IMG/VR virus record: IMGVR_UViG_3300043466_002290
Coordinates: 1-45,131 of that record
Direction: 5' to 3' (one strand)
Source of the DNA: a virus
Length of the DNA: 45,131 nucleotides
Made by a program: the position numbers and the translations under genes
The notes under the pieces: generated by a model
The model's database searches: none
What the model saw: only the letters and a program-made list of their open reading frames with translations
Told to the model about the DNA's origin: nothing
In this document: positions 20,483 through 39,040 of the stretch, piece by piece
How positions within the stretch are numbered: position 1 is the stretch's first letter
Layout of the letters: every line of letters starts with the position of its first letter

Positions 20483-20571
20483 TTAGTTAAATAGTTTAAT
20501 CCACGCCCAAAACAGAATGTCCGGAGTATAGTCCGGGGCGAACGTAATTGTGGTAATCGTTCTTTAACTAA
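20483..20571 (+). ncRNA. structured spacer between tRNAs
   Basis: Closed by TTAGTTAAA/TTTAACTAA (9 bp). Inside, CGCC pairs with GGCG and CCGGA-GTATAG-TCCGG forms a hairpin. One of many spacers in the cluster bounded by a perfect inverted repeat. Could be a processing signal or a separate small RNA. Confidence 0.4.
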
Positions 20572-20580
20572 AAAATATTT

Positions 20581-20651
20581 TGCCCTATCGTATATGGGTA
20601 TTACATTGGTTTTTGACACCAAAAAAAGTGTTTCGAGTACACTTAGGGCAA
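20581..20651 (+). tRNA. tRNA-Gln(TTG)
   Basis: Acceptor TGCCCTA/TAGGGCA, anticodon stem TTGGT/ACCAA with loop TTTTGAC, T arm AGTGT-TTCGAGT-ACACT, end ACA. Confidence 0.92.
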
Positions 20652-20700
20652 CAATTATTCGTCTTAAAGTATATTTTTAAGTATTTTACAATTTAACCGT

Positions 20701-20708
20701 ATATTTAT
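20701..20708 (+). promoter_or_regulatory. ATATTTAT candidate late promoter
   Basis: ATATTTAT 15 bases before ATG 20724 of the HNH endonuclease. Confidence 0.35.
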
Positions 20709-20723
20709 AAATAAAGGTTCGAT

Positions 20724-21761
20724 ATGTATGTAAAAATTAAAAGTTTAGATAAAAAATATTTGACGGAAATTGTACAAGATTCTTCATCATATAATGAGGT
20801 CATCCAAAAAATTGGGTGTGAAAATAAAGGAAATATTAAAAAAAATTTAGAATATTTTTTAAAAAAAAATAATATTTCAGTTGAACATTTTACAAATATA
20901 AAACTAATGAAAGAATCTAAAGATAGATATAACAAAGTTAGGTTGATTGAGTTATGTTCTAAACACAAAGTTTTAAAGGATGTTCTTTTTGAATTAGGTT
21001 TAACTCCTATAACCACAAATTATAGAAAATTAAAAGAAAAAATGGTGGAATATAACATTCCGTTTGACTATCGAAAAGATAATGATGTCTATAATAGGGA
21101 CGAGTTAATAAAATTAGTTGAAGAATGTAATACTTTTGGAGAAATATTGGTTAAAACTAACAGAGTTAGAAAAGGGGGTAATATTAAAACATTAAAAAAA
21201 TACTTAAATAAGTATAATATTGATTACTCGAAGATTACTAATTTTAAATATAAAAAACCTATTAAAACAAATTTAGATGAGGTGTTAATAGAAAATTCTT
21301 CATATTATAACACTTCTAATTTAAAAGAACGTTTATATAATGAAGGTTTAAAATCTCGTAAATGTGAAAAATGTGGTCAAGGAGAAATATGGAATGGTGA
21401 AAAACTTTCATTAATATTAGACCATATAAATGGAGTTAATAATGATAACCGTTTAGAAAATCTTAGAATAGTTTGTCCTAACTGTAATGCAACATTACCA
21501 ACACACTGTGGTAAAAATTTAAAAACCAAAATTAAAGATTTGAAATTAAAAAAAGAGTCTGAACGAAAAAATAATAATGGTAGAACAACATCAGAAATTG
21601 AGTCAAGTATTAAATCCCGAAAAGTAGATAGACCTGAATATGAAGTGTTATTGAAAGAGATTGATGAATTAGGGTATTCCTCCACCGGTAGAAAATATGG
21701 TGTTAGTGATAACGCTATTAGGAAATGGGTTAAATATTATGAAAAATATAAACAATGGTGA
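20724..21761 (+). CDS. HNH endonuclease with repeated helix-turn-helix domains
   Basis: 345 residues. The first ~180 residues hold about three similar basic helical repeats (phrases SSYNEVIQKIG, HKVLKDVLFELG, NTFGEILVKTN), likely DNA-binding. The HNH domain follows: CEKCGQGEIWNGEKLSLILD, HINGVNNDNRLENLRIVCPN, CNATLPTHCG. A C-terminal HTH (LGYSSTGRKYGVSDNAIRKW) ends the protein. Its stop codon overlaps the first five bases of tRNA-Cys, so it was inserted exactly at the tRNA. Probably a free-standing homing endonuclease aimed at the tRNA cluster. Confidence 0.88.
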   Translation: MYVKIKSLDKKYLTEIVQDSSSYNEVIQKIGCENKGNIKKNLEYFLKKNNISVEHFTNIKLMKESKDRYNKVRLIELCSKHKVLKDVLFELGLTPITTNYRKLKEKMVEYNIPFDYRKDNDVYNRDELIKLVEECNTFGEILVKTNRVRKGGNIKTLKKYLNKYNIDYSKITNFKYKKPIKTNLDEVLIENSSYYNTSNLKERLYNEGLKSRKCEKCGQGEIWNGEKLSLILDHINGVNNDNRLENLRIVCPNCNATLPTHCGKNLKTKIKDLKLKKESERKNNNGRTTSEIESSIKSRKVDRPEYEVLLKEIDELGYSSTGRKYGVSDNAIRKWVKYYEKYKQW

Positions 21762-21828
21762 TATGGCCGAGTGGCTTAGGCACAGGTCTGCAAAATCTGT
21801 AACGTGGGTTCGAATCCTACTATCACCT
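21757..21828 (+). tRNA. tRNA-Cys(GCA)
   Basis: Acceptor GGTGATA/TATCACC, anticodon stem CAGGT/ATCTG with loop CTGCAAA, T arm TGGGTTCGAATCCTA, end TCA. Its first five bases are also the end of the HNH gene. Confidence 0.92.
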
Positions 21829-21829
21829 C

Positions 21830-21883
21830 AACGGGTTCGGTGGAAACCCAAGAGTAGATGATGAATCTATGTCCACCACACTC
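21830..21883 (+). ncRNA. structured spacer
   Basis: GGTGG at about 21839 pairs with CCACC at about 21873, enclosing TAGAT-gatga-ATCTA. GGGTT/AACCC is an alternative hairpin. Confidence 0.3.
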
Positions 21884-21955
21884 GCCCTCGTAGCAAACCG
21901 GTGTAGGCAACTGGCTTTTAACCAGTGGGGTCAGGTTCAACTCCTGACGGGGGTA
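21884..21955 (+). tRNA. tRNA-Lys(TTT)
   Basis: Acceptor GCCCTCG/CGGGGGT, anticodon stem ACTGG/CCAGT with loop CTTTTAA, T arm TCAGGTTCAACTCCTGA, end ACA. Confidence 0.93.
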
Positions 21956-21970
21956 CAAGATGTACTTAGT

Positions 21971-22008
21971 TTGTATGTTTATAAGTAGGAAGTTTAGAAA
22001 CATACATT
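21971..22008 (+). ncRNA. hairpin spacer
   Basis: TGTATGTTT / AAACATACA, nine perfect pairs with a 17-base loop, filling most of the gap between tRNA-Lys and tRNA-Val. Confidence 0.4.
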
Positions 22009-22010
22009 TT

Positions 22011-22081
22011 GCCTCGATGGCGTAACGGGAGCGTATTTCTTTTACACGGAAAGGGCGGGGGTTCGATTCCCTCTCGAGGTA
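22011..22081 (+). tRNA. tRNA-Val(TAC)
   Basis: Acceptor GCCTCGA/TCGAGGT, anticodon loop TTTACAC on stem TTTCT/GGAAA, T arm GGGGGTTCGATTCCCTC, end ACA. Confidence 0.92.
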
Positions 22082-22093
22082 CAAATTTATTCA

Positions 22094-22163
22094 ACCTTTA
22101 GTTGTAGTTGGTAAGAACAATCGGCGGGAGCCGAGAGGACACAGGTTCGAATCCTGTAAGGTA
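22094..22163 (+). ncRNA. tRNA-like element with four-base anticodon loop
   Basis: Short acceptor ACCTT/AAGGT, a D arm with GTT/AAC and a GG-containing loop, and a normal T arm (ACAGGTTCGAATCCTGT). The anticodon arm is TCGGC-GGGA-GCCGA: a perfect five-pair stem with only four loop bases, so no anticodon can be presented. Either a decayed tRNA (perhaps Pro) or a tRNA-shaped RNA not used for decoding. Confidence 0.5.
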
Positions 22164-22216
22164 AAAAGCACACCCTGATTAAGTCCGGTAAGTGTGGGAT
22201 GGAATAAATTAAATTT

Positions 22217-22299
22217 GGGAGTACGCCGGAGTTGGAGAGCCGGGGCAGTCTGTAAAACTGTTGCTTAACGCTGAGTAGGTTCGATTCCTACTACTCTCA
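22217..22299 (+). tRNA. tRNA-Tyr(GTA)
   Basis: Acceptor GGGAGTA/TACTCTC, anticodon loop CTGTAAA, long variable arm as in bacterial tRNA-Tyr, T arm GTAGGTTCGATTCCTAC, end ACA. The preceding gap contains a CACAC/GTGTG hairpin. Confidence 0.93.
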
Positions 22300-22301
22300 C
22301 A

Positions 22302-22441
22302 AATGATAATGGTTTTCTCTATCTACCGGATGTCGACAATCCAAGATAGGTCAAAGAATTCATACACCCCCTGCCGGTGCACCGTAAAACTTCGTAAAGC
22401 AGTTAAGATTGGAGCGAGATGGGTACTCCAACATTATCATT
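22302..22441 (+). ncRNA. multibranched structured RNA between tRNA-Tyr and tRNA-Phe
   Basis: Closed by AATGATAATG (22302-22311) and CATTATCATT (22432-22441), ten perfect pairs. Inside are CTATCT/AGATAG (22319-22324 / 22344-22349), TTGGAG/CTCCAA (22409-22414 / 22426-22431) stacked on the closing stem, and a CTGC/GCAG arm containing CGGTGCACCG. No reading frame fits the segment. A separate small RNA released by tRNA processing is possible. Confidence 0.55.
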
Positions 22442-22445
22442 ACTC

Positions 22446-22517
22446 GGTACTGTAGCTCAGGGGTAGAGCACTTGGTTGAAGCCCAAGGTGTCGTTGGTTC
22501 GATTCCAACCAGTACCA
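22446..22517 (+). tRNA. tRNA-Phe(GAA)
   Basis: Acceptor GGTACTG/CAGTACC, anticodon stem CTTGG/CCAAG with loop TTGAAGC, T arm GTTGGTTCGATTCCAAC. Confidence 0.94.
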
Positions 22518-22520
22518 CGG

Positions 22521-22590
22521 AGTCCTGAAATAACAGGAAACCCCCACTCCCATATGGCAGCCGGTCCGTTAAGCCGGTGAAGTGGGGTAA
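22521..22590 (+). ncRNA. structured spacer
   Basis: TCCTG-aaataa-CAGGA hairpin followed by CCCCACT/AGTGGGG (7 bp) enclosing a GCCGG-rich hairpin. Confidence 0.4.
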
Positions 22591-22594
22591 AAAT

Positions 22595-22668
22595 TGGTCT
22601 GAAGCTTATACAGTAAAGCACTCGACTGTTAATCGAGATTCTTGCAGGTGCAAATCCTGTCAGACCAG
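22595..22668 (+). tRNA. tRNA-Asn(GTT)
   Basis: Acceptor TGGTCTG/CAGACCA, anticodon stem CTCGA/TCGAG with loop CTGTTAA. T loop is TGCAAAT, where the usual first TT is TG. End GCA. Confidence 0.9.
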
Positions 22669-22812
22669 CAAACAAGGCGATGTCCCAACCGTAAGTATCC
22701 GGATACGAGAAGGTAAGAAAATTAAAGTTACAGATGGACTACTAACACCTTGGACTACTAAGATTGAATGATACGAGCCTCCAAAGTTCGAAAGGAGTCA
22801 GGTAGTAGTCAA
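22669..22812 (+). ncRNA. structured spacer
   Basis: Contains GTATCCGGATAC (self-complementary) and GACTACT/AGTAGTC (7 bp, about 22752 to 22810) enclosing CTCC-(11)-GGAG. No convincing gene on either strand. Confidence 0.4.
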
Positions 22813-22817
22813 AATTT

Positions 22818-22889
22818 GCGCTCGTAGTAGAATGGTTAGCACACATTCCTGATAAGAATGAAAAGAAGGTTCAATTCCTTCCGAGCGTA
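22818..22889 (+). tRNA. tRNA-Ile(GAT)
   Basis: Acceptor GCGCTCG/CGAGCGT, anticodon stem CATTC/GAATG with loop CTGATAA, T arm GAAGGTTCAATTCCTTC, end ACA. Confidence 0.92.
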
Positions 22890-22893
22890 CAAA

Positions 22894-23037
22894 AAACCTA
22901 ACAACGGTAAGTGAAGTTAAAACACAATAAAAGTGTCTTCGTGAGGTATCCGATACTGACAGCTCCTGCATATGAAGGGGTGATGGGTGTGAAAGCGGAT
23001 TGAAAAGGGTACATCTCAAACCCTCACTGATAGGTTT
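22894..23037 (+). ncRNA. structured spacer closed by a 7-bp stem
   Basis: AAACCTA (22894-22900) pairs with TAGGTTT (23031-23037). Hairpins ACAC/GTGT and GGGT/ACCC lie inside. No gene seen. Confidence 0.4.
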
Positions 23038-23039
23038 AA

Positions 23040-23222
23040 AATAAATTAAAGATTGGTGTAAAGGTTAGTTAGGGTGGACAGTTCATTACTTTGAAGCTAC
23101 TATGTAAGTTATCGAGAAAGTAAAATCTAATCGGCCGAAAAGATTTGATGATATTAATAATGGTCAAAAACATACCGTTCGTGGAGAGCGGAGTTCTAAA
23201 ATCCAAGGTCTTTAAAATATAT
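23040..23222 (+). ncRNA. structured spacer upstream of tRNA-His
   Basis: Hairpins TTACTTT/AAAGTAA (7 bp, about 23086-23131), AAATCT/AGATTT (6 bp, about 23131-23155) and CCGTTC/GAGCGG lie in series. No reading frame is convincing. The stretch is too hairpin-dense to be plain spacer. Confidence 0.35.
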
Positions 23223-23295: not shown

Positions 23296-23301
23296 CAAAA
23301 A

Positions 23302-23461
23302 TTAAATTATTATAAAAAGAAGGCACCAAATGGTTGCTCAATGTAAAGAGACCAACAATAGGGGGTACGGGTGTATAAAAGACCGTGTTTAATTTATTTC
23401 CGTTGGGTTTGAGTGGATGAAACTATAACTGAGGTTTGAAACCGTACCTTTAATAATTTAA
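23302..23461 (+). ncRNA. structured RNA closed by an 11-bp stem
   Basis: TTAAATTATTA (23302-23312) pairs with TAATAATTTAA (23451-23461), eleven perfect pairs; GGTACGG (23364-23370) pairs with CCGTACC (23442-23448), seven pairs; TGGT/ACCA forms a third arm near 23331-23354. It lies between tRNA-His and a small coding gene. Confidence 0.5.
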
Positions 23462-23478
23462 TTAATTAAAAAATTGTT

Positions 23479-23741: not shown

Positions 23742-23844
23742 ATGTGTTGTTCCCGATACGGTACGCAAACCGTTGTGAGATGAGGGGTACTAAAAACTAG
23801 AGTATAAGTTCTCTACAATACAGAGGAATTCTCAACCTCAAATT
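23742..23844 (+). repeat. spacer module, copy 1
   Basis: Begins GTGTTGTTCCCG and ends with CAGAGG...TTCTCAACCTCAAAT. The same start and end occur at 23977-24083 with a different middle, each directly before a tRNA or tRNA-like element. ACGGT-(6)-ACCGT is a local hairpin. Confidence 0.5.
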
Positions 23845-23972
23845 GGTTAGGTGGCGGAATGGTAGACGCTATGAGAAAACCCAAATACTGAGGGCGTCCA
23901 TTTAGAGAGGAGTAAAGATAATGCTAGCTCATCAATCAGACTCTCGTACAGGTTCGAGACCTGTCCTGACCA
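23845..23972 (+). ncRNA. oversized tRNA-Leu-like element 1
   Basis: Acceptor GGTTAGG/CCTGACC, D arm GGCGGAATGGTAGACGC and T arm ACAGGTTCGAGACCTGT are those of a tRNA-Leu. Between D and T arms are about 80 bases instead of about 35. ATGAG/CTCAT can form an anticodon-like stem with a ~50-base loop; alternatively GACGC pairs with GCGTC. No standard anticodon loop is seen. Three sisters at 30967, 31199 and 38001. Confidence 0.6.
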
Positions 23973-23976
23973 CAAA

Positions 23977-24083
23977 GTGTTGTTCCCGTGAGAAAGGATT
24001 ACATTAAAGAGAAGTATTGAGTGAGGAGGAGGTAAAAGACACTAAGTATTCTACAGCACAGAGGAGTTCTCAACCTCAAATTT
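23977..24083 (+). repeat. spacer module, copy 2
   Basis: Same ends as 23742-23844 (GTGTTGTTCCCG at the start; CACAGAGGAGTTCTCAACCTC near the end), different middle. Confidence 0.5.
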
Positions 24084-24935: not shown

Positions 24936-24942
24936 CAAACTT

Positions 24943-25087
24943 GGGTAATCTTTCCGGTGTAGAGAATCGGGCCAACCTTTTACTGTTGGTGTCTAAAACG
25001 AATAAGGTTAATTGGAGTACAACATATCGTAATAGTTCGCGATAAAAAGGTATGTCAAGGCTCTCGGTGCGAATCCCCTATTGCCCA
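24943..25087 (+). ncRNA. tRNA-like element with large insertion
   Basis: Acceptor GGGTAAT/ATTGCCC followed by ACA as in the true tRNAs, a D-like arm, and CCAAC/GTTGG with an eight-base loop where the anticodon arm should be. About 70 extra bases follow, with ACATA/TATGT around TATCG/CGATA. The T arm is poorly formed (CTCGGTGCGAATCCCC). Decayed tRNA or non-decoding tRNA-like RNA. Confidence 0.45.
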
Positions 25088-25108
25088 CAAATTTTTTTTA
25101 ACATTTTT

Positions 25109-26400: not shown

Positions 26401-26413
26401 TACGGAATCTAAA

Positions 26414-26510
26414 GATTATCGCTTGGTGTAAGTGGGAATGAATACCACCTCGGGGTAGCACCGTGGAATATGTTCACGAGATACGGGTTCGAATCCCGTA
26501 GTGATAATCT
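26414..26510 (+). ncRNA. tRNA-like element with ten-pair acceptor stem
   Basis: GATTATCGCT (26414-26423) pairs with AGTGATAATC (26500-26509), ten pairs, enclosing a normal T arm (ACGGGTTCGAATCCCGT). The middle has GGTG/CACC in place of a D arm and CTCG/CGAG or CGTG/CACG in place of an anticodon arm; no anticodon loop with T33 is clear. It is a lone RNA gene with its own promoter-like element. Confidence 0.5.
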
Positions 26511-26527
26511 TAAAAAAAATATATTGA

Positions 26528-28058: not shown

Positions 28059-28073
28059 ATATAAAGAGTGTTT

Positions 28074-29655: not shown

Positions 29656-29723
29656 AACACCCGCTACGTAACGAAAGCGCTACGACACGTACTATCTGGC
29701 AGGTCAGGTCGGGTGTTTTTTAT
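29656..29723 (+). terminator. long-stem hairpin with T run
   Basis: AACACCCG / CGGGTGTT (8 bp) enclosing about 45 bases with smaller hairpins, followed by six T. Could terminate the transcript of 29056 or be another structured RNA of the cluster. Confidence 0.5.
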
Positions 29724-29816
29724 GGTCAGGTTGGATACAAGGTCGGTTCGATTCCGATGGAAGGTCTTGGATGACGGGTAGCACCCTGTAGAGAGGTTCG
29801 ATTCCTCTCCTGACCT
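29724..29816 (+). ncRNA. tRNA-like element with two T-arm-like hairpins
   Basis: Acceptor GGTCAGG/CCTGACC, the same as the tRNA-Leu-like family, and a T arm AGAGGTTCGATTCCTCT. In the middle is a second T-arm-like hairpin TCGG-TTCGATT-CCGA where an anticodon arm would be, then ACGGG-TAGCAC-CCTGT. No usable anticodon is seen. Confidence 0.45.
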
Positions 29817-29888
29817 CGGATGACGGAGAGTGAGTTAAGGGTAAAAGTCCGTTATGGTTACCCCTTGAGGGTCTCTCCTGAAGAAATT

Positions 29889-29959
29889 GGGATGAAAGCA
29901 CATAAGGATGTGCAAACGTCAGACGACGTGAGGCATGGGTTCGAATCCCAAACATTCCA
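29889..29959 (+). ncRNA. tRNA-like element with four-base loops
   Basis: Acceptor GGGATG/CATTCC and T arm TGGGTTCGAATCCCA followed by ACA. The D position is GCACAT-AAGG-ATGTGC and the anticodon position ACGTC-AGAC-GACGT: both perfect stems with four-base loops, so no anticodon is presented. Overall size is that of a tRNA. Confidence 0.5.
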
Positions 29960-30106
29960 CAATAAAGCTCACAAATTTTTAATATTGAGCTCATTTTATA
30001 ATGATTATGAGCCGAATATTACTTATCTTTGAGCCGTAAATTAAAATTAACAATGAAAAAAGAATTTGACGCTCATTAGGTTTAATAAACCTAAAATTTG
30101 AGCAAA
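29960..30106 (+). promoter_or_regulatory. leader region with repeated TGAGC/GCTCA and hairpin
   Basis: TGAGC or its complement occurs at least six times. A TTATCTTTG element near 30023-30031 may be a promoter. A tiny frame MKKEFDAH (about 30053-30079) is followed by GCTCA-tt-AGGTTT-aat-AAACCT-(6)-TGAGC, a hairpin just before ATG 30107. This could be an attenuator or operator array. Confidence 0.4.
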
Positions 30107-30283: not shown

Positions 30284-30285
30284 AG

Positions 30286-30792
30286 ATGAGTAAGTATGAT
30301 AAATGTTTGGTTTTAGATTCGAGTTATATCCCAAGGAGTATAATCTCGACTGAAAGAGCGTTTGTCATTTCCTACAAGGGGAATGCGGATGTAATTCACG
30401 AGCATCCGGAATCATTCAAATTGATTAACCCGGAGTTGGATATTAAAAAACCATCTATAATTCGTGTATTCAAATATGTGAATCAACAAATTCATAAAGT
30501 TCCGTTGAATCGAGAAAACGTATTTAAACGAGATAATTTTTGTTGTGTATATTGTGGTAATGATAATCGTAAAACATTAACTTTGGACCACGTAATACCT
30601 CAATCTAAAGGTGGTAAAGACACTTGGGAAAATTTGGTAACTGCGTGTAGAAAATGTAATAGTGAGAAATCAAATTTGACATTGGAAGAGTATGGTAAAG
30701 AAATTCCACAACCAAGACGACCTCACTATTTGATGTTAATGAAACAGGTATCACATATACCTAAAGAGTGGGACGATTATTTATTTTATTAA
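30286..30792 (+). CDS. HNH endonuclease
   Basis: 168 residues. Classic HNH domain in the second half: VFKRDNFCCVYCGNDNRKTL, LDHVIPQSKGGKDTWENLVT, ACRKCNSEKSNLT, with two CxxC zinc pairs and the DHV / N / H active-site pattern, then IPQPRRPHYL. The N-terminal part (CLVLDSSYIPRSIISTERAF) is the one usually seen in bacterial stand-alone HNH proteins rather than intron enzymes, so this may be a packaging- or defence-related nuclease instead of a homing enzyme. Confidence 0.88.
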   Translation: MSKYDKCLVLDSSYIPRSIISTERAFVISYKGNADVIHEHPESFKLINPELDIKKPSIIRVFKYVNQQIHKVPLNRENVFKRDNFCCVYCGNDNRKTLTLDHVIPQSKGGKDTWENLVTACRKCNSEKSNLTLEEYGKEIPQPRRPHYLMLMKQVSHIPKEWDDYLFY

Positions 30793-30966
30793 AAGACAGC
30801 CCGATTCCGGTGCACAGGATAGGGAACGAAGCTCTCGGATGACGGGTTTGTTATCTTAACATTATTTGGCTTCGGTTTTTATAATGGATGACAGATTGGC
30901 GCGGAGGTCGGCTAAATCGTTGGTTAGGGTGAGTTGTGGCACCGAGTATTTCTTCCACAACAAAAT
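30793..30966 (+). ncRNA. structured spacer upstream of tRNA-Leu-like 2
   Basis: GTTGTGG/CCACAAC, seven perfect pairs near 30930-30960, and a CCCG/CGGG stem near 30800-30846. GGATGACGG-like phrases occur here and near 29768 and 29818. No gene seen. Confidence 0.35.
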
Positions 30967-31126
30967 GGTCAGGTGGCGAAATGGTAGACGCTAAGTTATA
31001 CGAAATCTTACTAGAGTTCCTTACTACCTAAGTTGGTTCTGCATGCTAGGCGACTTAGGATAATAAAATGGAAACAAGGCATGATAAAACATGGAACTCG
31101 TACAGGTTCGAATCCTGTCCTGACTA
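30967..31126 (+). ncRNA. oversized tRNA-Leu-like element 2
   Basis: 160 bases. Acceptor GGTCAGG/CCTGACT, D arm GGCGAAATGGTAGACGC and T arm ACAGGTTCGAATCCTGT of tRNA-Leu type. The middle is about 110 bases. GAGTTCC/GGAACTC (7 bp) could be an enlarged variable arm; AAGTT pairs with GACTT so that TAGGC at the end of an insertion would supply a Leu TAG anticodon. Both readings need an insertion of about 45 bases or more. Confidence 0.6.
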
Positions 31127-31127
31127 C

Positions 31128-31198
31128 AGAGTAACTCATAATTGAGAACTCCCTCAAGTGATATACCGGGTGTGGTTGGTTAATTGAAGTATCACAAT
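31128..31198 (+). ncRNA. structured spacer
   Basis: GAGT-a-a-CTCA-taat-TGAG-a-ACTC hairpin, then GTGATA/TATCAC (6 bp) around the remaining sequence. Confidence 0.35.
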
Positions 31199-31333
31199 GG
31201 TCAGGTGGCGAAATGGTAGACGCAAGCGTTTAAAAGGTATGTGGTAAACCTAAAAACGCTCCACTAAAGTAAGGTATGAAATGTAAATCCATTATGGCTT
31301 ACTCCAATACAGGTTCGAATCCTGTCCTGACTA
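31199..31333 (+). ncRNA. oversized tRNA-Leu-like element 3
   Basis: 135 bases with the same acceptor, D arm and T arm as element 2. AGCGT/ACGCT forms a five-pair anticodon stem. The loop is 26 bases; removing 19 bases between positions 33 and 34 would leave TTTAAAA, a Leu TAA anticodon loop. The variable arm AGTAAG/CTTACT is also enlarged to about 45 bases. Confidence 0.6.
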
Positions 31334-31354
31334 CAAATTTTAATACATTTTAAT

Positions 31355-31516
31355 ATGAATAAAGTATTTTTAATATCACTATTGTCGTTTATATTATTAT
31401 CGTGTGGTAATAATAAACATCACATTAATGAAACTAAAATTGTAGATTCACTACTAATTGATACACCGGTGGGTGATGATGAAGCTCGTGATTATTTAAA
31501 TGATACCATAAAATAA
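31355..31516 (+). CDS. small lipoprotein, 53 aa
   Basis: Signal MNKVFLISLLSFILLSCGNN with lipobox LLSC; mature part of about 37 residues is acidic (IVDSLLIDTPVGDDEARDYL). Related in style to the lipoprotein at 40522 (both have IVDS repeats). Probably anchored in the host outer or inner membrane; a superinfection-exclusion role is possible but unproven. Confidence 0.7.
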   Translation: MNKVFLISLLSFILLSCGNNKHHINETKIVDSLLIDTPVGDDEARDYLNDTIK

Positions 31517-31562
31517 TTTATACATATGACATTTCCCGGCGATAATCGCCGTTATTAACGGC

Positions 31563-31676
31563 AAGTATATGGCAAGTAGCCGAACACAAATGTTGATTAG
31601 AATTACAAATATTAATAAACAGCAGATAGTTTCTAAAATGCCTGACACGGCTATTTGTTATATACATTGTTAGGCA
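31563..31676 (+). other. attC-like palindrome A
   Basis: GTATATGGCAAGTAGCCG (31565-31582) pairs imperfectly with CGGCTATTTGTTATATAC (31648-31665), followed by GTTAGGC (31669-31675), which fits the attC core form GTTRRRY. The unpaired extra bases in one arm are typical of integron attC hairpins. Confidence 0.45.
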
Positions 31677-31685
31677 ACGTTTATT

Positions 31686-32009
31686 ATGGAATACAAAACA
31701 ATAATTATTGAAGGTGAGGAATTTCTTTTAATTCCAAAATCAAAAGAAGAAAAACTTAACAAAAAATACAAAATTAAGTTTGATAAGATATATACTGAAA
31801 CACATTTTGATGTGGAAGTATGGGGATGGTCAAAAAAATTCATTAACAATAGTGATAAAAGTGAAGATTGTTGGGTAACATTTAGAAGAACCGAAAAAGA
31901 AAATGGAGAATTTTTTTGGACAGATTGGAGTACAGGTGGTGTTGGTGCTAAAAAAGAAATTGCTCTTTTATTAGAAGGATGGTATCACAATTATATGAAC
32001 CAACGTTAA
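31686..32009 (+). CDS. hypothetical cassette-like protein, 107 aa
   Basis: Beta-rich start TIIIEGEEFLLIPK resembles IIIDGVEYELTPK in the gene at 32775. Later part Trp-rich (VEVWGWSKKF; FFWTDWSTGG). The gene begins 11 bases after GTTAGGC and ends just before TGTTGCCTAACG, which is complementary to GTTAGGCAAC: the boundary rule of an integron gene cassette. Function unknown. Confidence 0.65.
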   Translation: MEYKTIIIEGEEFLLIPKSKEEKLNKKYKIKFDKIYTETHFDVEVWGWSKKFINNSDKSEDCWVTFRRTEKENGEFFWTDWSTGGVGAKKEIALLLEGWYHNYMNQR

Positions 32010-32011
32010 AT

Positions 32012-32045
32012 GTTGCCTAACGATTACAGATATATACAGTTGTTT
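32012..32045 (+). other. attC-like site B, possibly truncated
   Basis: GTTGCCTAAC (R'' form RYYYAAC) directly after the previous gene, complementary to the cassette start at 31669-31678, but the rest of the expected palindrome is short. Confidence 0.35.
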
Positions 32046-32063
32046 ATTTAAATTAAAATATAA

Positions 32064-32312
32064 ATGATAGAAGAAAAAGAATACTTAAAAGCAAAGCAGA
32101 TAGTTCAAGAATACGAAAAACAATTGAATATATCTGATGTTAGTGATTGTAATGTGTTTAGTAGGAAACAAGTTAAATCATTATTAAGACAATTATGTTA
32201 TGATTGTATGACATCATATGCTTACTTCAAAGGATATAATAAAAAGAGAAGAATAATTTCTCATGTTAATAACATAATTAATGAATCACCTAAACACAAT
32301 TATTATCACTAA
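32064..32312 (+). CDS. hypothetical cassette-like protein, 82 aa
   Basis: Helical, charged (MIEEKEYLKAKQIVQEYEKQ), two cysteines near the middle (LCYDCMTSYAYFKGY), ends in His/Tyr. Placed between two attC-like sites. Function unknown. Confidence 0.6.
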   Translation: MIEEKEYLKAKQIVQEYEKQLNISDVSDCNVFSRKQVKSLLRQLCYDCMTSYAYFKGYNKKRRIISHVNNIINESPKHNYYH

Positions 32313-32382
32313 CGGTTTGCAGATACACGCTGTGAGCGTTGGAATGAGGGGGGAGAAATAGCGTGTATATGCTGTTATAGGC
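32307..32382 (+). other. attC-like palindrome C
   Basis: ATACACGCT (32323-32331) pairs perfectly with AGCGTGTAT (32360-32368), with outer CTAAC / GTTATAG arms and core GTTATAGGC at 32374-32382. Confidence 0.45.
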
Positions 32383-32424
32383 AGTGGTTTTATTAACTCA
32401 AAATTTAAAAACAAAAACAAAAAT

Positions 32425-32664
32425 ATGGATTACAGAATTATTATTGAAACAGAAGCAAGTGGTAAAAAATGGTACTACGTTCAAAGACGTTACTTGGTTT
32501 ATTTTTGGCGTTACTTGCGTGAAGTGCGTGATATTTCAATGTACGCATATAAAATAGGTTGGCATTCATTAGAGGAAGCAGAAGCACATATTCAGTCGGA
32601 TGTAAACGCAAGATACGCAAATGACCAAAAGAAAATTGTCAAACGTGAATATCTTATTAGGTAG
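32425..32664 (+). CDS. hypothetical cassette-like protein, 79 aa
   Basis: Basic, aromatic protein (KKWYYVQRRYLVYFWRYLRE) with a helix EEAEAHIQSDVNARYAND. Its region starts at GTTATAGGCAGTGG and ends at CCATTGCCTATAAC, complementary with one mismatch, as expected for a cassette. Function unknown. Confidence 0.65.
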   Translation: MDYRIIIETEASGKKWYYVQRRYLVYFWRYLREVRDISMYAYKIGWHSLEEAEAHIQSDVNARYANDQKKIVKREYLIR

Positions 32665-32671
32665 TGTCTTT

Positions 32672-32740
32672 ACCATTGCCTATAACGTCTGATGATAAAC
32701 AATCGTTTTAATGTTGTTTATCATTTGTTATATGAATGTG
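32672..32740 (+). other. attC-like palindrome D
   Basis: CCATTGCCTATAAC, then ATGATAAACAA (32691-32701) paired perfectly with TTGTTTATCAT (32713-32723), then GTTATA completing an outer pairing with TATAAC. Confidence 0.5.
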
Positions 32741-32774
32741 TTATTTTTGTTTTACCGATTAAAAAATTAAATTT

Positions 32775-33149
32775 ATGGAAAAGAAAATTATCATTGATGG
32801 TGTTGAATATGAGTTAACACCTAAGAAAGTTTTAACAGACGAAGAATTTGTTAACTATGTTTTAGAAAAACACAAAATTGACTTTAATATTGGTGATATT
32901 GTTTGGTATAAAGGAGAGACTATTAGAAAAGAATGTGGAGAAACTAAATTTAGAGTACTATCAATCGAACCGTATTTAATTGATGGTATAAGAGTTGATA
33001 CTTACCTAAATGTTAATTTGGAAAGTCTAACATCAGGTAATAAAGTTAGTTTCTTCACATCACATTTGGAAAAATACAGTGGTAAAGATTTTGTTAAAGA
33101 AATTATGATTGATGGAGTTGATTATGAGTTAACACCAAAACAAAAATAA
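32775..33149 (+). CDS. hypothetical protein with repeated IDGVEYELTPK motif
   Basis: 124 residues. Starts MEKKIIIDGVEYELTPKK and ends IMIDGVDYELTPKQK, so the motif occurs at both ends. The middle is beta-rich with a KOW/SH3-like phrase (FNIGDIVWYKGETI). The same motif begins the gene at 31686. Last gene of the cassette-like array; a weak TATATAAC lies after it. Confidence 0.65.
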   Translation: MEKKIIIDGVEYELTPKKVLTDEEFVNYVLEKHKIDFNIGDIVWYKGETIRKECGETKFRVLSIEPYLIDGIRVDTYLNVNLESLTSGNKVSFFTSHLEKYSGKDFVKEIMIDGVDYELTPKQK

Positions 33150-33247
33150 GATTTTATATAACTATAATATATACGTAATAGAATATATATGACTATTTAT
33201 CAATAACTTACCTCTTGGAAAATTCAAAAATTATAAAGATTACAATT

Positions 33248-33457
33248 AAAAAGTTTAACAACCGGGGTGTCCATACTCTAAAAAACTAATGGACTAGGTG
33301 TGTTGATAGGGGTGACCTCCCAATAGTAGCTGATTAAATTCGAGGATAGATAAGGACTAGTACGCCGGTGAGGAACACAACCAATTCCGGAATTCCCACG
33401 AGAAGAAATTCTCAAGTTGCCCGCTACGACCCGAGGGCGGGGTTGTTAAACTTTTTT
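33248..33457 (+). ncRNA. structured RNA closed by a 16-bp stem
   Basis: AAAAAGTTTAACAACC (33248-33263) pairs perfectly with GGTTGTTAAACTTTTT (33441-33456), followed by more T, so the closing stem could also act as terminator. Inside: GTCCAT/ATGGAC (14-base loop), TGTGTT/AACACA, GAGAA-gaaa-TTCTC and CCCGC/GCGGG. No coding frame fits. About 210 bases, next to tRNA clusters like the large phage RNAs GOLLD and ROOL, but much shorter and I see no match to either. Confidence 0.65.
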
Positions 33458-34884: not shown

Positions 34885-34916
34885 TTTGGTAGATTAAAAA
34901 AGATATTATATCTTTG
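34885..34916 (+). promoter_or_regulatory. promoter of second tRNA cluster
   Basis: TTTG at 34885-34888, 20-base spacer, TATCTTTG at 34909-34916. Confidence 0.75.
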
Positions 34917-34935
34917 TACCGAAATTAAAAAACAT

Positions 34936-34955
34936 GTTATTTGACATATTGATAA
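34936..34955 (+). promoter_or_regulatory. boxA-like leader repeat
   Basis: Identical over 20 bases to 20366-20385, again between promoter and first tRNA. Confidence 0.5.
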
Positions 34956-34962
34956 TATAAAT

Positions 34963-35123: not shown

Positions 35124-35579
35124 ATGATGAGTTTAGTAAAACAAGTGAATGATGACTTTATTGTTGCATTCAAACAAAAGGACACAATTGGTAAAATGGC
35201 GTTAGGTAATTTAAAATCAAAGTTATCAGATGCTGAAAAAATCAAAAAAAGTGAATTGACAGATGAAGAGGCGTTAAAAGTGATTGTATCAATTGCCAAA
35301 ACTCGTAATCAATCAATTCAAGAATACACCAAAGCAAACAGAATGGATTTGGTGGAAAATGAAAAATTAGAATTAGAGGTTATTGAAAAATACTTACCAA
35401 GTCAAATGACCGAAGACGAAATTAAAAATGAAGTTCGTTCTTTAATTTCTGAAATGGGTGAAGTAACAACGAATCCACAAGTTCTAATTGGTAAAACAAT
35501 GGGAGCCTTCAATAAGAAATTTCAAGGAAGGGCTGACATTAAACAAGTTAAACAGATAATTGAGGAAATGGTGGTATGA
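35124..35579 (+). CDS. YqeY/GatB-like protein
   Basis: 151 residues of the YqeY family (GatB-like C-terminal domain): KQKDTIGKMALGNLKSKLSD, EEALKVIVSIAKTRNQSIQE, EKLELEVIEKYLPSQMTEDE, VLIGKTMGAFNKKFQGRAD. In GatB this domain binds tRNA during Gln/Asn transamidation; the stand-alone function is not known. Starting 13 bases after tRNA-Ala, and next to tRNA-Glu, a tRNA-binding role is reasonable inference. Two adjacent ATGs at 35124 and 35127. Confidence 0.88.
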   Translation: MMSLVKQVNDDFIVAFKQKDTIGKMALGNLKSKLSDAEKIKKSELTDEEALKVIVSIAKTRNQSIQEYTKANRMDLVENEKLELEVIEKYLPSQMTEDEIKNEVRSLISEMGEVTTNPQVLIGKTMGAFNKKFQGRADIKQVKQIIEEMVV

Positions 35580-35971: not shown

Positions 35972-35987
35972 TCCAAGAAAAAAAAAC

Positions 35988-36076
35988 GAGAAGACAGGAT
36001 GCGGGATTCACCATCCGATTAACACGGTTCTTCTCCCGTCAATTGTTAAAGGATGGTCACCTTTGGATTGACAAAA
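35988..36076 (+). ncRNA. two structured segments upstream of tRNA-Asp
   Basis: GAGAAGA/TCTTCTC (7 bp) around GGATG-(10)-CATCC, then GTCAAT/ATTGAC (6 bp) around AAAGG-(7)-CCTTT. Near the transcript 5' end. Confidence 0.4.
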
Positions 36077-36079
36077 TTT

Positions 36080-36151: not shown

Positions 36152-36201
36152 CAAATCATAGGAGTAATTAACCTATGACTGTCAGGTTCGAAACTGACGA
36201 T

Positions 36202-36303
36202 TGATTATGGTGTAATGGTGCACAGAGGAACGGAGTAATGGCAGGTGCCATAGCAACCGGTGAAAGGGGGCTCAGGAGTAAGGTTCGAATCCTTATTAGT
36301 CAG
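36202..36303 (+). ncRNA. tRNA-like element with enlarged middle
   Basis: Acceptor TGATTA/TAGTCA with one G-T pair, D-like GTG...CAC arm, T arm TAAGGTTCGAATCCTTA, end GCA. The middle is about 60 bases and contains ATGGC-AGGT-GCCAT, a stem with four-base loop. Just upstream are a perfect hairpin TCATAGG/CCTATGA and an isolated T-arm-like GTCAG-GTTCGAAA-CTGAC. Confidence 0.45.
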
Positions 36304-36367
36304 CAAAATAAATACAATGTGTGAGGTATATTTTCGGGTTGTGAAGTGGTTTTTCGGGGTTTTCTTG

Positions 36368-36380: not shown

Positions 36381-36926
36381 ATGGAAGAATTAAATAGATA
36401 TCAGAAAGCGGCTTTAGTTAGTAATACGAGAAGTCGAGAAAAATCGTTAAAAAAATATTACGAAAATCCTAACATTTGTAAGTGTTGTAATAAACCAATT
36501 CCGGTTGGTGAAAAACAAAAAGTGAGTGACATTAGAAAAAAAGTTTTTTGTAATAGTAGTTGTTCGGCAACATTTAATAATTTACAAAGAGAAAGTAAAC
36601 TTAAAAATAAAATCAAAACGCCAAAAAAAGAAAAATTTGAGTTTATTTTGAGTTTGACAAAAAAAGATTTAATTGATAAACACGAAATTTATTATAAATT
36701 CAGGGCGGTAATTAGGAAACATGCTCATTACGTGTTTAATAAACATCACGAACATCAAGAATGTAAAGTTTGTGGGTATGATACTCACGTTGAGGTTTGT
36801 CATATTAAATCAGTATCATCGTTTAGTGATGACTCTTTAATAAGTGAAATAAATTCTATAGATAATTTAGTTGGATTATGTCCTAATCATCATTGGGAAT
36901 TTGATAATGGTAAAATAGAATTATAA
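36381..36926 (+). CDS. HNH homing endonuclease with N-terminal zinc finger
   Basis: 181 residues. N-terminal zinc-finger-like part (NICKCCNKPIPVGEKQ, FCNSSCSATFNN), then HNH: CKVCGYDTHVEVCHIKSVSS and NLVGLCPNHHWEFDNGKI, with zinc CxxC, the V-C-H-I catalytic His and the final N-H-H. Lies within the tRNA cluster and ends 5 bases before a tRNA-Met-like gene. Probably free-standing. Confidence 0.88.
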   Translation: MEELNRYQKAALVSNTRSREKSLKKYYENPNICKCCNKPIPVGEKQKVSDIRKKVFCNSSCSATFNNLQRESKLKNKIKTPKKEKFEFILSLTKKDLIDKHEIYYKFRAVIRKHAHYVFNKHHEHQECKVCGYDTHVEVCHIKSVSSFSDDSLISEINSIDNLVGLCPNHHWEFDNGKIEL

Positions 36927-36931
36927 TATAT

Positions 36932-37002: not shown

Positions 37003-37011
37003 CAAATGTGT

Positions 37012-37077
37012 CTCAATTCCCTGAAGAAATTCAAAGTTGAGGTCTCGGTAGACAGTACTAGTCTGAATCTACCCAAA
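37012..37077 (+). ncRNA. structured spacer
   Basis: CTCAA/TTGAG hairpin followed by GGTAG-AC...GTCT...CTACC. Confidence 0.35.
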
Positions 37078-37080
37078 TAT

Positions 37081-37152: not shown

Positions 37153-37154
37153 CC

Positions 37155-37241
37155 AAATAGATTTGGGTGTAGGGTTACGATACGACATAACCCTTTCAAT
37201 GTAATCGTAAACATTGATAATCGCCGCAGCAAAATCTATTT
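37155..37241 (+). ncRNA. three-way structured RNA between two tRNA-Gly genes
   Basis: AAATAGATTT (37155-37164) pairs with AAATCTATTT (37232-37241), ten perfect pairs; AGGGTT/AACCCT (37171-37176 / 37189-37194) and TCAATG/CATTGA (37196-37201 / 37212-37217) form two inner hairpins. A clean three-way junction of 87 bases exactly filling the gap between tRNA-Gly genes. Confidence 0.6.
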
Positions 37242-37246
37242 TATTT

Positions 37247-37320: not shown

Positions 37321-37327
37321 CAGAACT

Positions 37328-37402: not shown

Positions 37403-37403
37403 C

Positions 37404-37517
37404 AAATACTTTCATCCAAGCAGGTGAGGATAGGATACTAATAGAACTCGTCATTCAATTAACGTAATCACTCAAGATGATGACAACATAAAAGGGTTGC
37501 AACCTTTTGGAAGTACA
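37404..37517 (+). ncRNA. structured spacer
   Basis: TACTTTC/GGAAGTA (7 bp) encloses GTCAT/ATGAC and AAAAGG-(7)-CCTTTT. No gene seen. Confidence 0.4.
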
Positions 37518-37521
37518 AAAG

Positions 37522-37650
37522 AAAACCATCGATAATGACACGCACGGCAGCCGAAATGAAATAGTACTCAATGATTAGGCAATGCGAACGATGAAGACCG
37601 GATACCTCACTGTGCGTAGGTAAGTATCAAATCCGGTTGGTGGTTTTTTT
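37522..37650 (+). ncRNA. structured RNA with probable pseudoknot and U-tail
   Basis: Closing stem AAAACCATCGA / TTGGTGGTTTT (11 pairs, two G-U; 37522-37532 and 37637-37647) followed by T. A hairpin CCGGATAC.../...GTATCaaATCCGG has the loop CACTGTGCGT, whose GTGCGT (37612-37617) is complementary to ACGCAC (37540-37545) upstream: a pseudoknot. The terminal stem with a T run also suits an intrinsic terminator. No coding frame fits. Confidence 0.55.
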
Positions 37651-37654
37651 ATTA

Positions 37655-37804
37655 TACATTATCATAACTCGGTGAGATACGCCGCCAATTACCTCCTTAA
37701 ACAACGTGGGAACTGCGGTTCTCCCAATGTGGCCGAAGTGATGATGTAAAATAGTAGTTTAAGAGACAGAGTTGACTTCTACTTTAAAAAAATACTCTGC
37801 GACA
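37655..37804 (+). ncRNA. structured spacer closed by a 10-bp stem
   Basis: TACATTATCA (37655-37664) pairs with TGATGATGTA (37739-37748) with one G-U; TGGGA...TCCCA inside; then AGTAG/CTACT before tRNA-Thr. No gene seen. Confidence 0.4.
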
Positions 37805-37805
37805 G

Positions 37806-37877
37806 GCTTCCAAAACATAAATGGTGATGTATTCGGTTTGTACCCGAAAAAACGGGGTTCGATTCCTCGTGGAAGCT
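37806..37877 (+). tRNA. tRNA-Thr(TGT)
   Basis: Acceptor GCTTCCA/TGGAAGC, D stem ACAT/ATGT, anticodon stem TTCGG/CCGAA with loop TTTGTAC, T arm CGGGGTTCGATTCCTCG, end TCA. Confidence 0.93.
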
Positions 37878-37883
37878 CAAAAT

Positions 37884-37995
37884 GTTGGTGTGAATGGAGA
37901 CACCACTGAACGGTTAAAGGGTTCGTTAATAATAAAGAAGTTAAGAAGGTAAAGAGTATTAACGATTGTCCCTAAGCGGTTTACTTACAACACTT
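37884..37995 (+). ncRNA. structured spacer upstream of tRNA-Leu-like 4
   Basis: GGTGT/ACACC hairpin, then TCGTTAATA/TATTAACGA (9 perfect pairs), with TGTTG/CAACA as a possible outer stem. Confidence 0.4.
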
Positions 37996-38000
37996 TAATT

Positions 38001-38183
38001 AGTCGGGTGGCGGAATTGGATAGACGCAAGAGTTTAGTAAGGATAAAGTTGAGTCATTAAGTATGGTATCTGTTGAAAGTTCCTAAAATGATAGAGATGA
38101 ACGTAGTGGTGGCTAATACCCAGACAGATATGCCCCGAGAGAATAACCACAAATCCGTGCAGGTTCGAGTCCTGTCCTGACTA
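38001..38183 (+). ncRNA. oversized tRNA-Leu-like element 4
   Basis: 183 bases. Acceptor AGTCGGG/CCTGACT, D arm GGCGGAATTGGATAGACGC, T arm CAGGTTCGAGTCCTG, end ACA. The middle is about 135 bases and contains TATCTGT/ACAGATA (7 bp) and GTGGT/ACCAC. No anticodon stem-loop of normal size is seen. Same family as 23845, 30967 and 31199 by acceptor, D and T arms only. Confidence 0.6.
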
Positions 38184-38451
38184 CAATTGAGAGTGAGATA
38201 CTCAAGAATATGTGGTTTCGCATTATATGAACCGGTTAATACACAGGTGGTAACCGAAGTCCTTTAGGGGAAGCAACATCCGGATAGGGTGTAATGAGAC
38301 CTAAATGTGGTTAAAATACTGTGTTTCGGAGTAATGAGGGATTCTCTAACCTCACCGAATAAGAGTGACTTTTTCAAGGTGTAAGAACCGCAGGGTTTTC
38401 AATAGGAAAACCGGGAATATCCACATCAAGTAATCTCATTGATGGAAACAC
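38184..38451 (+). ncRNA. hairpin-dense spacer, 268 bases
   Basis: Series of hairpins: TTGAG/CTCAA, GGTT/AACC, TTCGG-(5)-TGAGG/CCTCA-c-CGAA, GGTTTT/AAAACC and CATCAA/TTGATG. No convincing gene on either strand. Confidence 0.35.
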
Positions 38452-38534
38452 ATCTCCGTGGTGGAACAGGTATACACGCATCTCTTAAACAGATGTCCCT
38501 TTATGGGTTGTGGGTTCGACTCCCACCGGGGATA
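38452..38534 (+). tRNA. tRNA-Leu(TAA)
   Basis: Acceptor ATCTCCG/CGGGGAT, D stem GTG/CAC, anticodon stem CATCT/AGATG with loop CTTAAAC, long variable arm CCC...GGG, T arm GTGGGTTCGACTCCCAC, end ACA. A normal Leu tRNA, unlike the four oversized ones. Confidence 0.92.
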
Positions 38535-38541
38535 CAAAATT

Positions 38542-38636
38542 TCAAACATTAAAGTGACATTGACAAATAGACCAAGTGAGGCACACGTAAAATTGTATCA
38601 GTCGAAAGTTGAGGTGATAGACCACCATATGTTTGA
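38542..38636 (+). ncRNA. structured spacer closed by an 8-bp stem
   Basis: TCAAACAT (38542-38549) pairs with ATGTTTGA (38629-38636). GGTG/CACC-type hairpin inside. Confidence 0.35.
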
Positions 38637-38717
38637 TATTTATATTTAATTGATTATATTACTAATATGAAAAACCAAAAACCCAACTCCACGTAGTTTT
38701 AGCTGTTAGCTAAAATT

Positions 38718-38948
38718 ATGACTCAGAAATTGAGAATTTGGAGAGTAGTTCCCGTTAGAAACGGTGTTCAGGCTCCCACTTTTTTTGTAGAAACTACAGA
38801 AGAAGGACGTGAGAAGGCAGAAGAATCTGCAATTAAACAAGCAAGGTTAAGAACCTGCTTGGGGAAATTTAAGGAATGGAAATTCCGATTGGAGAAACTC
38901 TCTGTGAGGGTTGATAAATTTGGTAGGTATATCCAACACCACCAATAA
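38718..38948 (+). CDS. hypothetical basic protein, 76 aa
   Basis: Arg/Lys-rich (LRIWRVVPVRNGVQAPTFFV; EESAIKQARLRTCLGKFKEW), beta then helical. A hairpin TTTTAGC-TGTTA-GCTAAAA lies just before the ATG and could control initiation. It is the only coding gene in this part of the tRNA cluster. RNA binding is plausible from charge; no family recognised. Confidence 0.6.
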   Translation: MTQKLRIWRVVPVRNGVQAPTFFVETTEEGREKAEESAIKQARLRTCLGKFKEWKFRLEKLSVRVDKFGRYIQHHQ

Positions 38949-39040
38949 GTCAAGAATCAAACCGCTGAGGGTTTTAAATTACTCAGTGTACTTTTTAGGT
39001 TAAAGTCATGTAGGATGTTTTTAACATCAAAACCTAATTT
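38949..39040 (+). ncRNA. structured spacer
   Basis: CTGAG/CTCAG hairpin, then TAGGTT/AACCTA (6 bp) around GATGTT-ttt-AACATC. Confidence 0.35.

Follow-up and report, generated by a model that had tools for sequence, protein, structure and literature searches.

We have analysed a 45-kb virus record from IMG/VR, IMGVR_UViG_3300043466_002290 (45,131 nucleotides (nt), hereafter the window), in which the genes for transfer RNAs (tRNAs) form two operons, at ca 20.3–25.1 kb and 34.9–39.2 kb. The spacers between these tRNAs contain conserved, folded RNA elements, and some 20 of them recur in IMG/VR relatives. There they are usually better conserved than same-anticodon tRNAs, and their sequence persists where the adjacent tRNAs have been swapped for others. 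We consider it probable that these spacers are independent structured RNA genes that are co-transcribed with the tRNAs, are likely released by tRNA processing, and act in trans.

The relatives were collected by two routes. The syntenic contig IMGVR_UViG_3300042946_000297 (loci L013 and L015) was found through a protein encoded next to the array (window 40750–41937, 70% identity), and further contigs came from patterns of conserved spacer cores, which gave 7, 5, 10, 33 and 24 matches. A 233-amino-acid open reading frame (ORF) before the array was rejected as a route to close relatives; it gave four weak loci, of which three are records without a tRNA match and one has only two. In a profile search over the collected loci, 24 elements have at least three distinct homologous sequences. 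The median identity of the spacer RNAs to the window in six relatives is 88, 95, 94, 84, 91 and 78%, while the corresponding values, in the same order, are 79, 68, 70, 81, 67 and 66% for same-anticodon tRNAs and 82, 74, 79, 78, 81 and 74% for coding DNA. The spacers are thus above the tRNAs in all six comparisons, and above the coding DNA too. The tRNA genes at the same place are often replaced; tRNA-Thr is 57–64% identical, and the RNA just before it (37650–37750) is 94–96% identical.

The individual spacer RNAs are given below, where z compares the alignment with column shuffles unless it is marked as single sequence.

20480..20580, + strand: SerGln, closed by TTAGTTAAA/TTTAACTAA; 9 distinct homologues, 95% mean identity, almost invariant, z = -1.4.
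21829..21880, + strand: CysLys, ca 50 nt, with a proposed pseudoknot in which GGGTT pairs with AACCC and the loop GGTGGA with TCCACC; 12 distinct homologues, z = -2.5.
22303..22443, + strand: TyrPhe, closing stem ATGATAATG/CATTATCAT and inner helices; 17 distinct homologues, z = -6.2.
22519..22594, + strand: PheAsn; 20 distinct homologues, z = -2.7; its core is present in 24 viral contigs.
22675..22815, + strand: AsnIle, two sub-elements, of which the second is also found by itself close to tRNA-Pro in G014; z = -7.5.
22938..23040, + strand: IleHis1, stem GAGGTATCC...ACCCTC; 8 distinct homologues, z = -3.5.
23744..23843, + strand: GTGTTGTTCCC...AGAGGARTTCTCAACCTC RNA, copy 1, hypervariable middle, z = -2.7.
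23977..24082, + strand: GTGTTGTTCCC RNA, copy 2.
29656..29719, + strand: R29656, after the ORF at 29056–29655, closed by ACACCCG/CGGGTGT with a U-run; 10 homologues behind several ORFs, z = -5.6.
29818..29888, + strand: hairpin RNA GGAGAG...CTCTCC; 9 homologues, z = -3.5.
33246..33457, + strand: R33250, large multi-pseudoknot RNA with a 14-bp closing stem and a U-run; 16 distinct homologues, z = -5.1.
35985..36079, + strand: tRNA-Asp leader RNA, immediately behind a promoter (35940), z = -2.0.
36153..36205, + strand: two-hairpin RNA in which a covarying stem carries the T-loop-like loop RTTCGAAR; two-sided change in 6 of 12 pairs, z = -4.6.
37005..37078, + strand: two-hairpin spacer RNA with compensatory A-U to G-C pairs; 7 homologues, z = -4.3.
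37155..37241, + strand: Gly-Gly spacer with 10-bp closure, no homologue found; z = -2.9, p = 0.009 (single sequence).
37404..37520, + strand: spacer RNA behind tRNA-Leu; stem changes are seen in its single homologue.
37536..37642, + strand: R37520, widespread Bacteroidota-phage RNA with pseudoknot ACGCAC/GUGCGU.
37653..37750, + strand: R37650; core identical in 33 viral contigs, almost invariant, z = -1.7.
37752..37805, + strand: R37752, probable H-type pseudoknot RNA (GTAG/CTAC with CAGAGT/ACTCTG), A-rich loop.
38371..38450, + strand: RNA before tRNA-Leu(UAA); 11 homologues, z = -3.3.
38536..38650, + strand: RNA behind tRNA-Leu(UAA), closed by TCAAACAT/ATGTTTGA; 7 homologues, z = -2.2.
38959..39042, + strand: RNA before tRNA-Met; 5 homologues, z = -2.4.

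When the 24 family alignments are scored against column-shuffled alignments, z is below -2 in 20 of them (median -3.0), where the shuffles leave shared ancestry in and changes are counted per sequence and not per event. Three families, R33250, TyrPhe and R37520, were tested in detail, and in each of them two-sided compensatory change, pseudoknots included, exceeds that in all 500 shuffles and in every slid control. For R33250 (16 sequences), 98.1% of the cells are paired in a fold of six helices that includes pseudoknots, and 11 pairs are two-sided, a result that none of the 500 shuffles reaches, and sliding the partner by 1–3 columns lowers the pairing to 38–51%. For TyrPhe (15 sequences), two-sided change is found in 17 of 32 pairs (0 of 500 shuffles), three of them in the closing stem 22302/22441, which an earlier note on this DNA had named; in that stem compensatory change is seen in 3 of 9 pairs and 100% of the cells are paired. 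R37520 (15 sequences) has 95.2% paired and 11 of 21 pairs two-sided (0 of 500 shuffles). Its outer helix is variable at every pair, and its pseudoknot ACGCAC/GUGCGU becomes ACGAGC/GCUCGU in a Porphyromonas phage. The compensatory change among homologues that the earlier note had proposed to look for is thus clearly present. In R37752, the proposed pseudoknot helix changes from U-A to C-G (CAGAGT/ACTCTG to CAGAGC/GCTCTG) in 2 of 9 sequences, and the nested fold is not above column shuffles.

The earlier note had been made from the sequence alone, and it described most spacers as hairpin-bounded and built on the same plan. The six inverted repeats that it named are all present, at most 1 nt from where it placed them: 20483/20571 (9 bp), 22302/22441 (10 bp), 23301/23462 (12 bp, A/T only), 37155/37241 (10 bp), 37655/37748 (11 bp, two of them G-U) and 38542/38636 (8 bp). 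Each gap was compared with 1000 dinucleotide shuffles of that gap, with 92 stretches as controls. Unusual closing stems are found for Ser-Gln (p = 0.007), Val-Tyr (0.005), Tyr-Phe (0.001), Gly-Gly (0.009), the Pro end (0.016) and 38186–38451 (0.023). A closing stem at p < 0.05 is thus present in 6 of 23 long gaps, as against 5.4% of the control stretches (Fisher p = 2.5e-5, all gaps). The stems are accordingly enriched over controls, but by single-sequence tests they bound a minority of the spacers, and six tRNA-tRNA gaps of just 4–8 nt hold no element. Nor is there a common plan, as the folds differ between families, several have pseudoknots, and many have no closing stem. The folding energy, which the note had suggested comparing with shuffled spacers, is mostly on the expected side, with a negative single-sequence z in 22 of 23 long gaps, but only modestly low (below -2 in only 5) and weak when taken alone. 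Homologues were found for four of the six named examples (20480–20580, 22301–22445, 37650–37750 and 38536–38650), and the profile search over the collected relative loci gave none for 23297–23478 and 37156–37246. Since the 20483/20571 stem is nearly invariant, covariation is uninformative for it.

One could argue that AT-rich sequence folds anyway and that the similarity among relatives merely reflects recent common ancestry, and single-sequence energies close to the shuffled values are what this would give. For the main families this explanation is contradicted by the enriched closing stems, by the 20 of 24 alignments that beat their shuffles, by compensatory change exceeding 500 of 500 shuffles and the slid controls, and by a conservation higher than that of genes. 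We find it barely credible as a general account, and it could apply to spacers without homologues.

Element maps place the same element beside different tRNAs in different phages (INDEPENDENCE from tRNAs). Depending on the phage, CysLys comes after tRNA-Cys, tRNA-Gln or another spacer RNA, and PheAsn is located between Phe-Asn, Asn-Ile or Asn-His. The ORFs that precede R29656 have at least five different lengths, R33250 is flanked by ORFs or lies close to tRNA-Trp, and two different array regions carry T29722. R37520 was located in 21 stretches of viral contigs, the majority of which have no tRNA close by, and in the Porphyromonas phage PP754928.1 it is located between the capsid and adaptor genes, after the major capsid gene; a search of plasmids gave no match to it. 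Because the neighbours differ between phages, the elements are better seen as RNA genes for which the array is a location than as guides of a particular tRNA. Together with sequence conservation, covariation and pseudoknots, this independence from the adjoining tRNA supports, for ca 20 conserved elements, the small RNAs that the earlier note had offered as one of its readings.

The RNA elements are all on the tRNA strand, inside units delimited by consensus promoters and terminators, and the spacer RNAs are encoded within the putative tRNA transcription units. The consensus signals, listed below, suggest that the spacer RNAs are co-transcribed with the tRNAs.

20315..20390, + strand: Bacteroidota-type promoter (TTTG-N-TAccTTTG, at 20315) and boxA-like GTTATTTGACATATTGATAA, ahead of tRNA operon 1.
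34885..34959, + strand: promoter and boxA-like motif ahead of the tRNA-Glu/Ala operon.
39158..39187, + strand: intrinsic terminator of operon 2 (also cited as 39177).

The next promoter after operon 1 is at 25109, and the promoters of operon 2 are found at 34885 and 35940. The boxA-like GTTATTTGACATATTGATAA is confined to sites ahead of both tRNA operons and is found at the same two places in the relative L015.

Such signals could also belong to a cis-acting system, in which the hairpins keep the tRNAs apart, direct the cuts of RNase P or RNase Z, or provide the antitermination signals that a long untranslated operon would require. The location of the elements on the tRNA strand, with ends often within a few nt of tRNAs, the boxA-like motif before both operons, and the Asp leader RNA directly behind its promoter would all fit. 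However, the elements persist beside different tRNAs, and R33250, R29656 and R37520 are also found away from tRNAs, some of these copies far from any. The six tRNA pairs with 4–8 nt gaps have no element, and the conservation extends to unpaired bases and complex pseudoknots, which is beyond the need of a cut-site guide. The processing guides suggested earlier are therefore disfavoured, and we regard cis-acting roles in general as rather improbable.

A second class of elements appears to consist of reshaped tRNAs, in which the anticodon arm has been lost or replaced by a hypervariable domain. In ca ten elements of the window the acceptor and T arms of a tRNA are kept, in most of them together with a D-like arm, and a normal anticodon arm is absent:

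22084..22210, + strand: closed element with an anticodon-less tRNA-like arm set (tetraloop hairpin replacing the anticodon arm); 3 sequences, z = -4.6.
23845..23974, + strand: tRNA-like RNA with Leu-type D arm, GTCAGG-type acceptor and CAGGTTCGA T arm; variable middle, without the 5+7 anticodon arm.
24940..25091, + strand: tRNA-like/closed element after tRNA-Pro (GGGTAAT/ATTGCCC); 4 homologues, z = -2.1.
26412..26511, + strand: standalone tRNA-like RNA with an 11-bp stem AAGATTATCGC/GTGATAATCTT at the acceptor position; conserved ends, variable hairpin, z = -6.0.
29723..29819, + strand: tRNA-like RNA that encloses another T-arm-like hairpin; at another array place in C33984, z = -1.7.
29887..29961, + strand: tRNA-like RNA with D and anticodon arms replaced by two tetraloop hairpins; z = -5.2.
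30967..31128, + strand: tRNA-like RNA, variable middle of 109 nt.
31199..31335, + strand: tRNA-like RNA, variable middle of 84 nt.
36202..36304, + strand: tRNA-like RNA (T36206), ends 88–92% identical, middle 38%.
38003..38184, + strand: tRNA-like RNA, longest variable middle of all.

The canonical 5+7 anticodon arm is found in 0 of 10 Leu-type tRNA-like elements, compared to 5 of 5 ordinary tRNAs. Four tRNA-like elements have common ends of the type GGTCAGGTGGCGAAATGGTAGACGC ... CAGGTTCGAATCCTGTCCTGACTACA. Over ten two-ended cases, identity is 79 and 88% at the ends and 23% in the middles, which are 40–109 nt long; the same pattern is seen for T36206, GluLike and the GTGTTGTTCCC family (ends 83–95%, middle 34–39%). 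The transfer-messenger RNA (tmRNA) is a tRNA-like RNA without an anticodon arm. Like tRNA (RF00005) and tmRNA, the class described here keeps acceptor, D-like and T arms, and it differs by its hypervariable middle and the lack of a canonical anticodon arm. To our knowledge, no RNA design of this sort, a tRNA frame that carries a hypervariable insert, has been reported from phages so far. The window has no match to the tmRNA model (RF00023), and tmRNA genes by this model are present in relatives (L013:3768-4159, L031:13222-13613 and L027:18725-19120).

The occurrence of true tRNA-like elements with odd anticodon arms, in arrays that gain and lose tRNAs, could be taken to mean that the spacers in general are remnants of former tRNA genes. 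The decayed and reshaped tRNAs of the earlier note do find a counterpart in this separate class, but the idea does not carry over to the other spacers, most of which have no tRNA sequence or fold; outside the tRNA-like class there is no Rfam match up to E=5. Decaying genes would neither out-conserve working tRNAs nor covary, and for the covarying and conserved families decay is contradicted on both counts. We consider it very improbable.

The tRNA-like class also raises the question of whether these RNAs, and some of the spacer RNAs, are anti-defence decoys, which mimic parts of host tRNA or RNA and soak up tRNA-attacking nucleases or other RNA-sensing defences, with the hypervariable middles as the record of an arms race. 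Ends (acceptor and T arms) that are 79–95% identical around middles of 23–39%, and the loss of the canonical anticodon arm in all ten elements, would be in line with this. The phage further encodes two RNA ligase-like proteins, and one known role of RNA ligases is the repair of tRNAs cut by host defences. These proteins fit a setting of cut tRNAs and prove nothing. However, hypervariability could also come from relaxed constraint or insertion, the target is only presumed, and the many nearly unchanging spacer RNAs are left unexplained. As the overall explanation, decoys are in our judgement unlikely, though less so than a cis-acting role.

A scan of the window for circularly permuted tRNAs with rotated ARAGORN returned just the neighbouring ordinary tRNAs. 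An apparent permuted tRNA is seen in relatives, at L027:16227-16314, L029 ca 6290–6390 (− strand) and L043 ca 2190–2290 (− strand), with a possible second copy in L043. It consists of a stem GTGTGGGTGT/ACACCCACA around a T arm, a capped acceptor-like hairpin and then a canonical D arm (GCTCAGATGGTAGAGC). It is kept in the three phages with changes in the terminal stem (GTGGACGT/ACGTCCAC), has a promoter-like sequence of its own, and is located ca 0.6–1 kb upstream of the structured RNA GOLLD.

Returning to the independent structured RNA genes that we favour, several points weigh against this explanation. In SerGln, R37650 and R37752, covariation is hidden by near invariance or by knotted folds, and single-sequence folding energies are only weakly below those of shuffles. 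Ca nine spacer stretches have no homologue in the collected loci and could be unconstrained sequence. Since the relatives are mostly of one phage lineage, each compensatory change may represent one event that is counted repeatedly. Finally, the trans-acting role is one that we infer.

Rfam 15, searched at gathering and relaxed thresholds (up to E=5), gave no meaningful match in the window except tRNA; among the spacers, the tRNA scores fall on the tRNA-like class. Small RNAs of a phage tRNA region are known from T4, where RNAC and RNAD, whose role is unknown, come from such a region (PMC3014915). T4 has two of them, while here there are ca 20 families and the tRNA-like RNAs over two operons; the likeness described is one of kind. 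GOLLD and ROOL are structured phage RNAs of unknown function, often found near tRNA islands, that form cages (PMC12286853). GOLLD is often longer than 800 nt, compared to 50–210 nt here, and the window RNAs sit inside the tRNA arrays. The Rfam models of GOLLD (RF02032) and ROOL have no match in the window, for GOLLD above the gathering score (tRNA only). As a positive control, GOLLD was found in three relatives (288–308 bits; L027:16951-17362, L029:5044-5449 and L043:1008-1414), with GTCAGG-type tRNA-like elements upstream. Theta ribozymes, which are HDV-like, are structured RNAs next to tRNAs of phages thought to infect Bacteroidota (PMC10879173). They begin exactly at the tRNA 3' end, whereas the window has no match to any HDV-like family up to E=5 and its RNAs have helices that differ from the HDV-like nested double pseudoknot. 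A tRNA-transcript spacer that acts in trans, as a sponge RNA, is 3'ETS-leuZ of E. coli (as cited in PMC7154689); the window elements differ in that their folds are complex and conserved and their neighbours change. A full-text literature search, covering few subscription papers or preprints, found no report of such RNA families in tRNA arrays of huge phages. What is new here is the unusual number of such RNAs of tRNA regions and the tRNA-mimic class, while the kind itself is already known.

As for the phage itself, the nearest relative of its head maturation protease is in the 635-kb phage LR745206.1 (56% identity), followed by Lak-type huge phages (about 42%). The Bacteroidota-type promoter TTTG-N-TAnnTTTG occurs 13 times on the + strand and 8 times on the − strand of the window, where 1.7 are expected, and because of this excess the host is likely a member of Bacteroidota. 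The window would then be part of a Bacteroidota-type large phage with relatives in IMG/VR. It contains tRNAs for all 20 amino acids when ARAGORN and Rfam calls are combined (Ala-TGC at 35040 and the second Asn at 22595 are Rfam-only calls; anticodons were taken from the sequence and folds). The TyrPhe, R33250 and R37520 models have no match in LR745206, LR756502, LR756504 and two Lak phages, large records on which stricter filters were used. In GTDB genomes, exact patterns of the R37650 core and of 45 bases of R37520 gave no match, and distant BLAST of R33250 gave none in named phages. When the stretch 21829–23045 was compared by BLAST with other phages, the annotated matches among those listed fall at tRNA genes.

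Several other genes and motifs accompany the arrays. A YqeY-family protein (PF09424) is coded within the Glu/Ala tRNA operon (window 35124–35579). Homing-endonuclease-like ORFs (HNH, LAGLIDADG) lie within or between the arrays, at window 20724–21761, 28068–29066 and 36381–36926 and also at L015:3499, and in G001 an ORF that by eye resembles a GIY-YIG endonuclease is immediately upstream of the TyrPhe RNA. The two RNA ligase-like proteins, which are different from each other, are encoded near the arrays at window 3651–4745 and 8139–9155 (phrog_562, T4 Rnl1-like; phrog_968). Between small ORFs at window 31500–32800 there are repeated imperfect inverted repeats (GCCTAACG/CGTTAGGC-like, TGCCTATAACG), which by eye resemble attC-like cassettes, and the motif GGATGACGG (or GGATGACAG) occurs four times between tRNA-like elements at window 29760–30900.

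If the spacers are indeed RNA genes, each operon would give one long transcript, in which tRNAs alternate with ca 20 structured RNAs (50–210 nt) and anticodon-less tRNA-like RNAs. Host RNase P and 3'-end enzymes would excise the tRNAs and thereby set free the RNAs between them. A terminal stem or pseudoknot, where present, could hold the ends together and slow exonucleases, which may make the freed RNAs stable. Once free, they would have their effect in trans in the infected cell, and the most plausible way is by binding to host proteins or RNAs, either in regulation or as decoys for host defences.

Large phages are known for long tRNA arrays, and the usual explanations are codon usage or the replacement of attacked tRNAs. 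Because here the tRNAs are less strongly constrained than the RNAs that separate them, a count of the tRNAs misses much of what such an array contains. One can tentatively go further, with clearly less confidence, and speculate that the array is an RNA arsenal of ca 20 trans-acting RNAs and diversifying anticodon-less tRNA mimics, in which a constant tRNA frame would present a hypervariable RNA domain, as decoys or adaptors in the phage's conflict with its host, the tRNAs serving partly as punctuation for release. The analysis yields ca 20 RNA families that have no counterpart in Rfam. Their boundaries, and the several folds tested by covariation, can be used for tests of structure and function, and one of the families, R37520, connects the huge phages with small phages of Bacteroidota.

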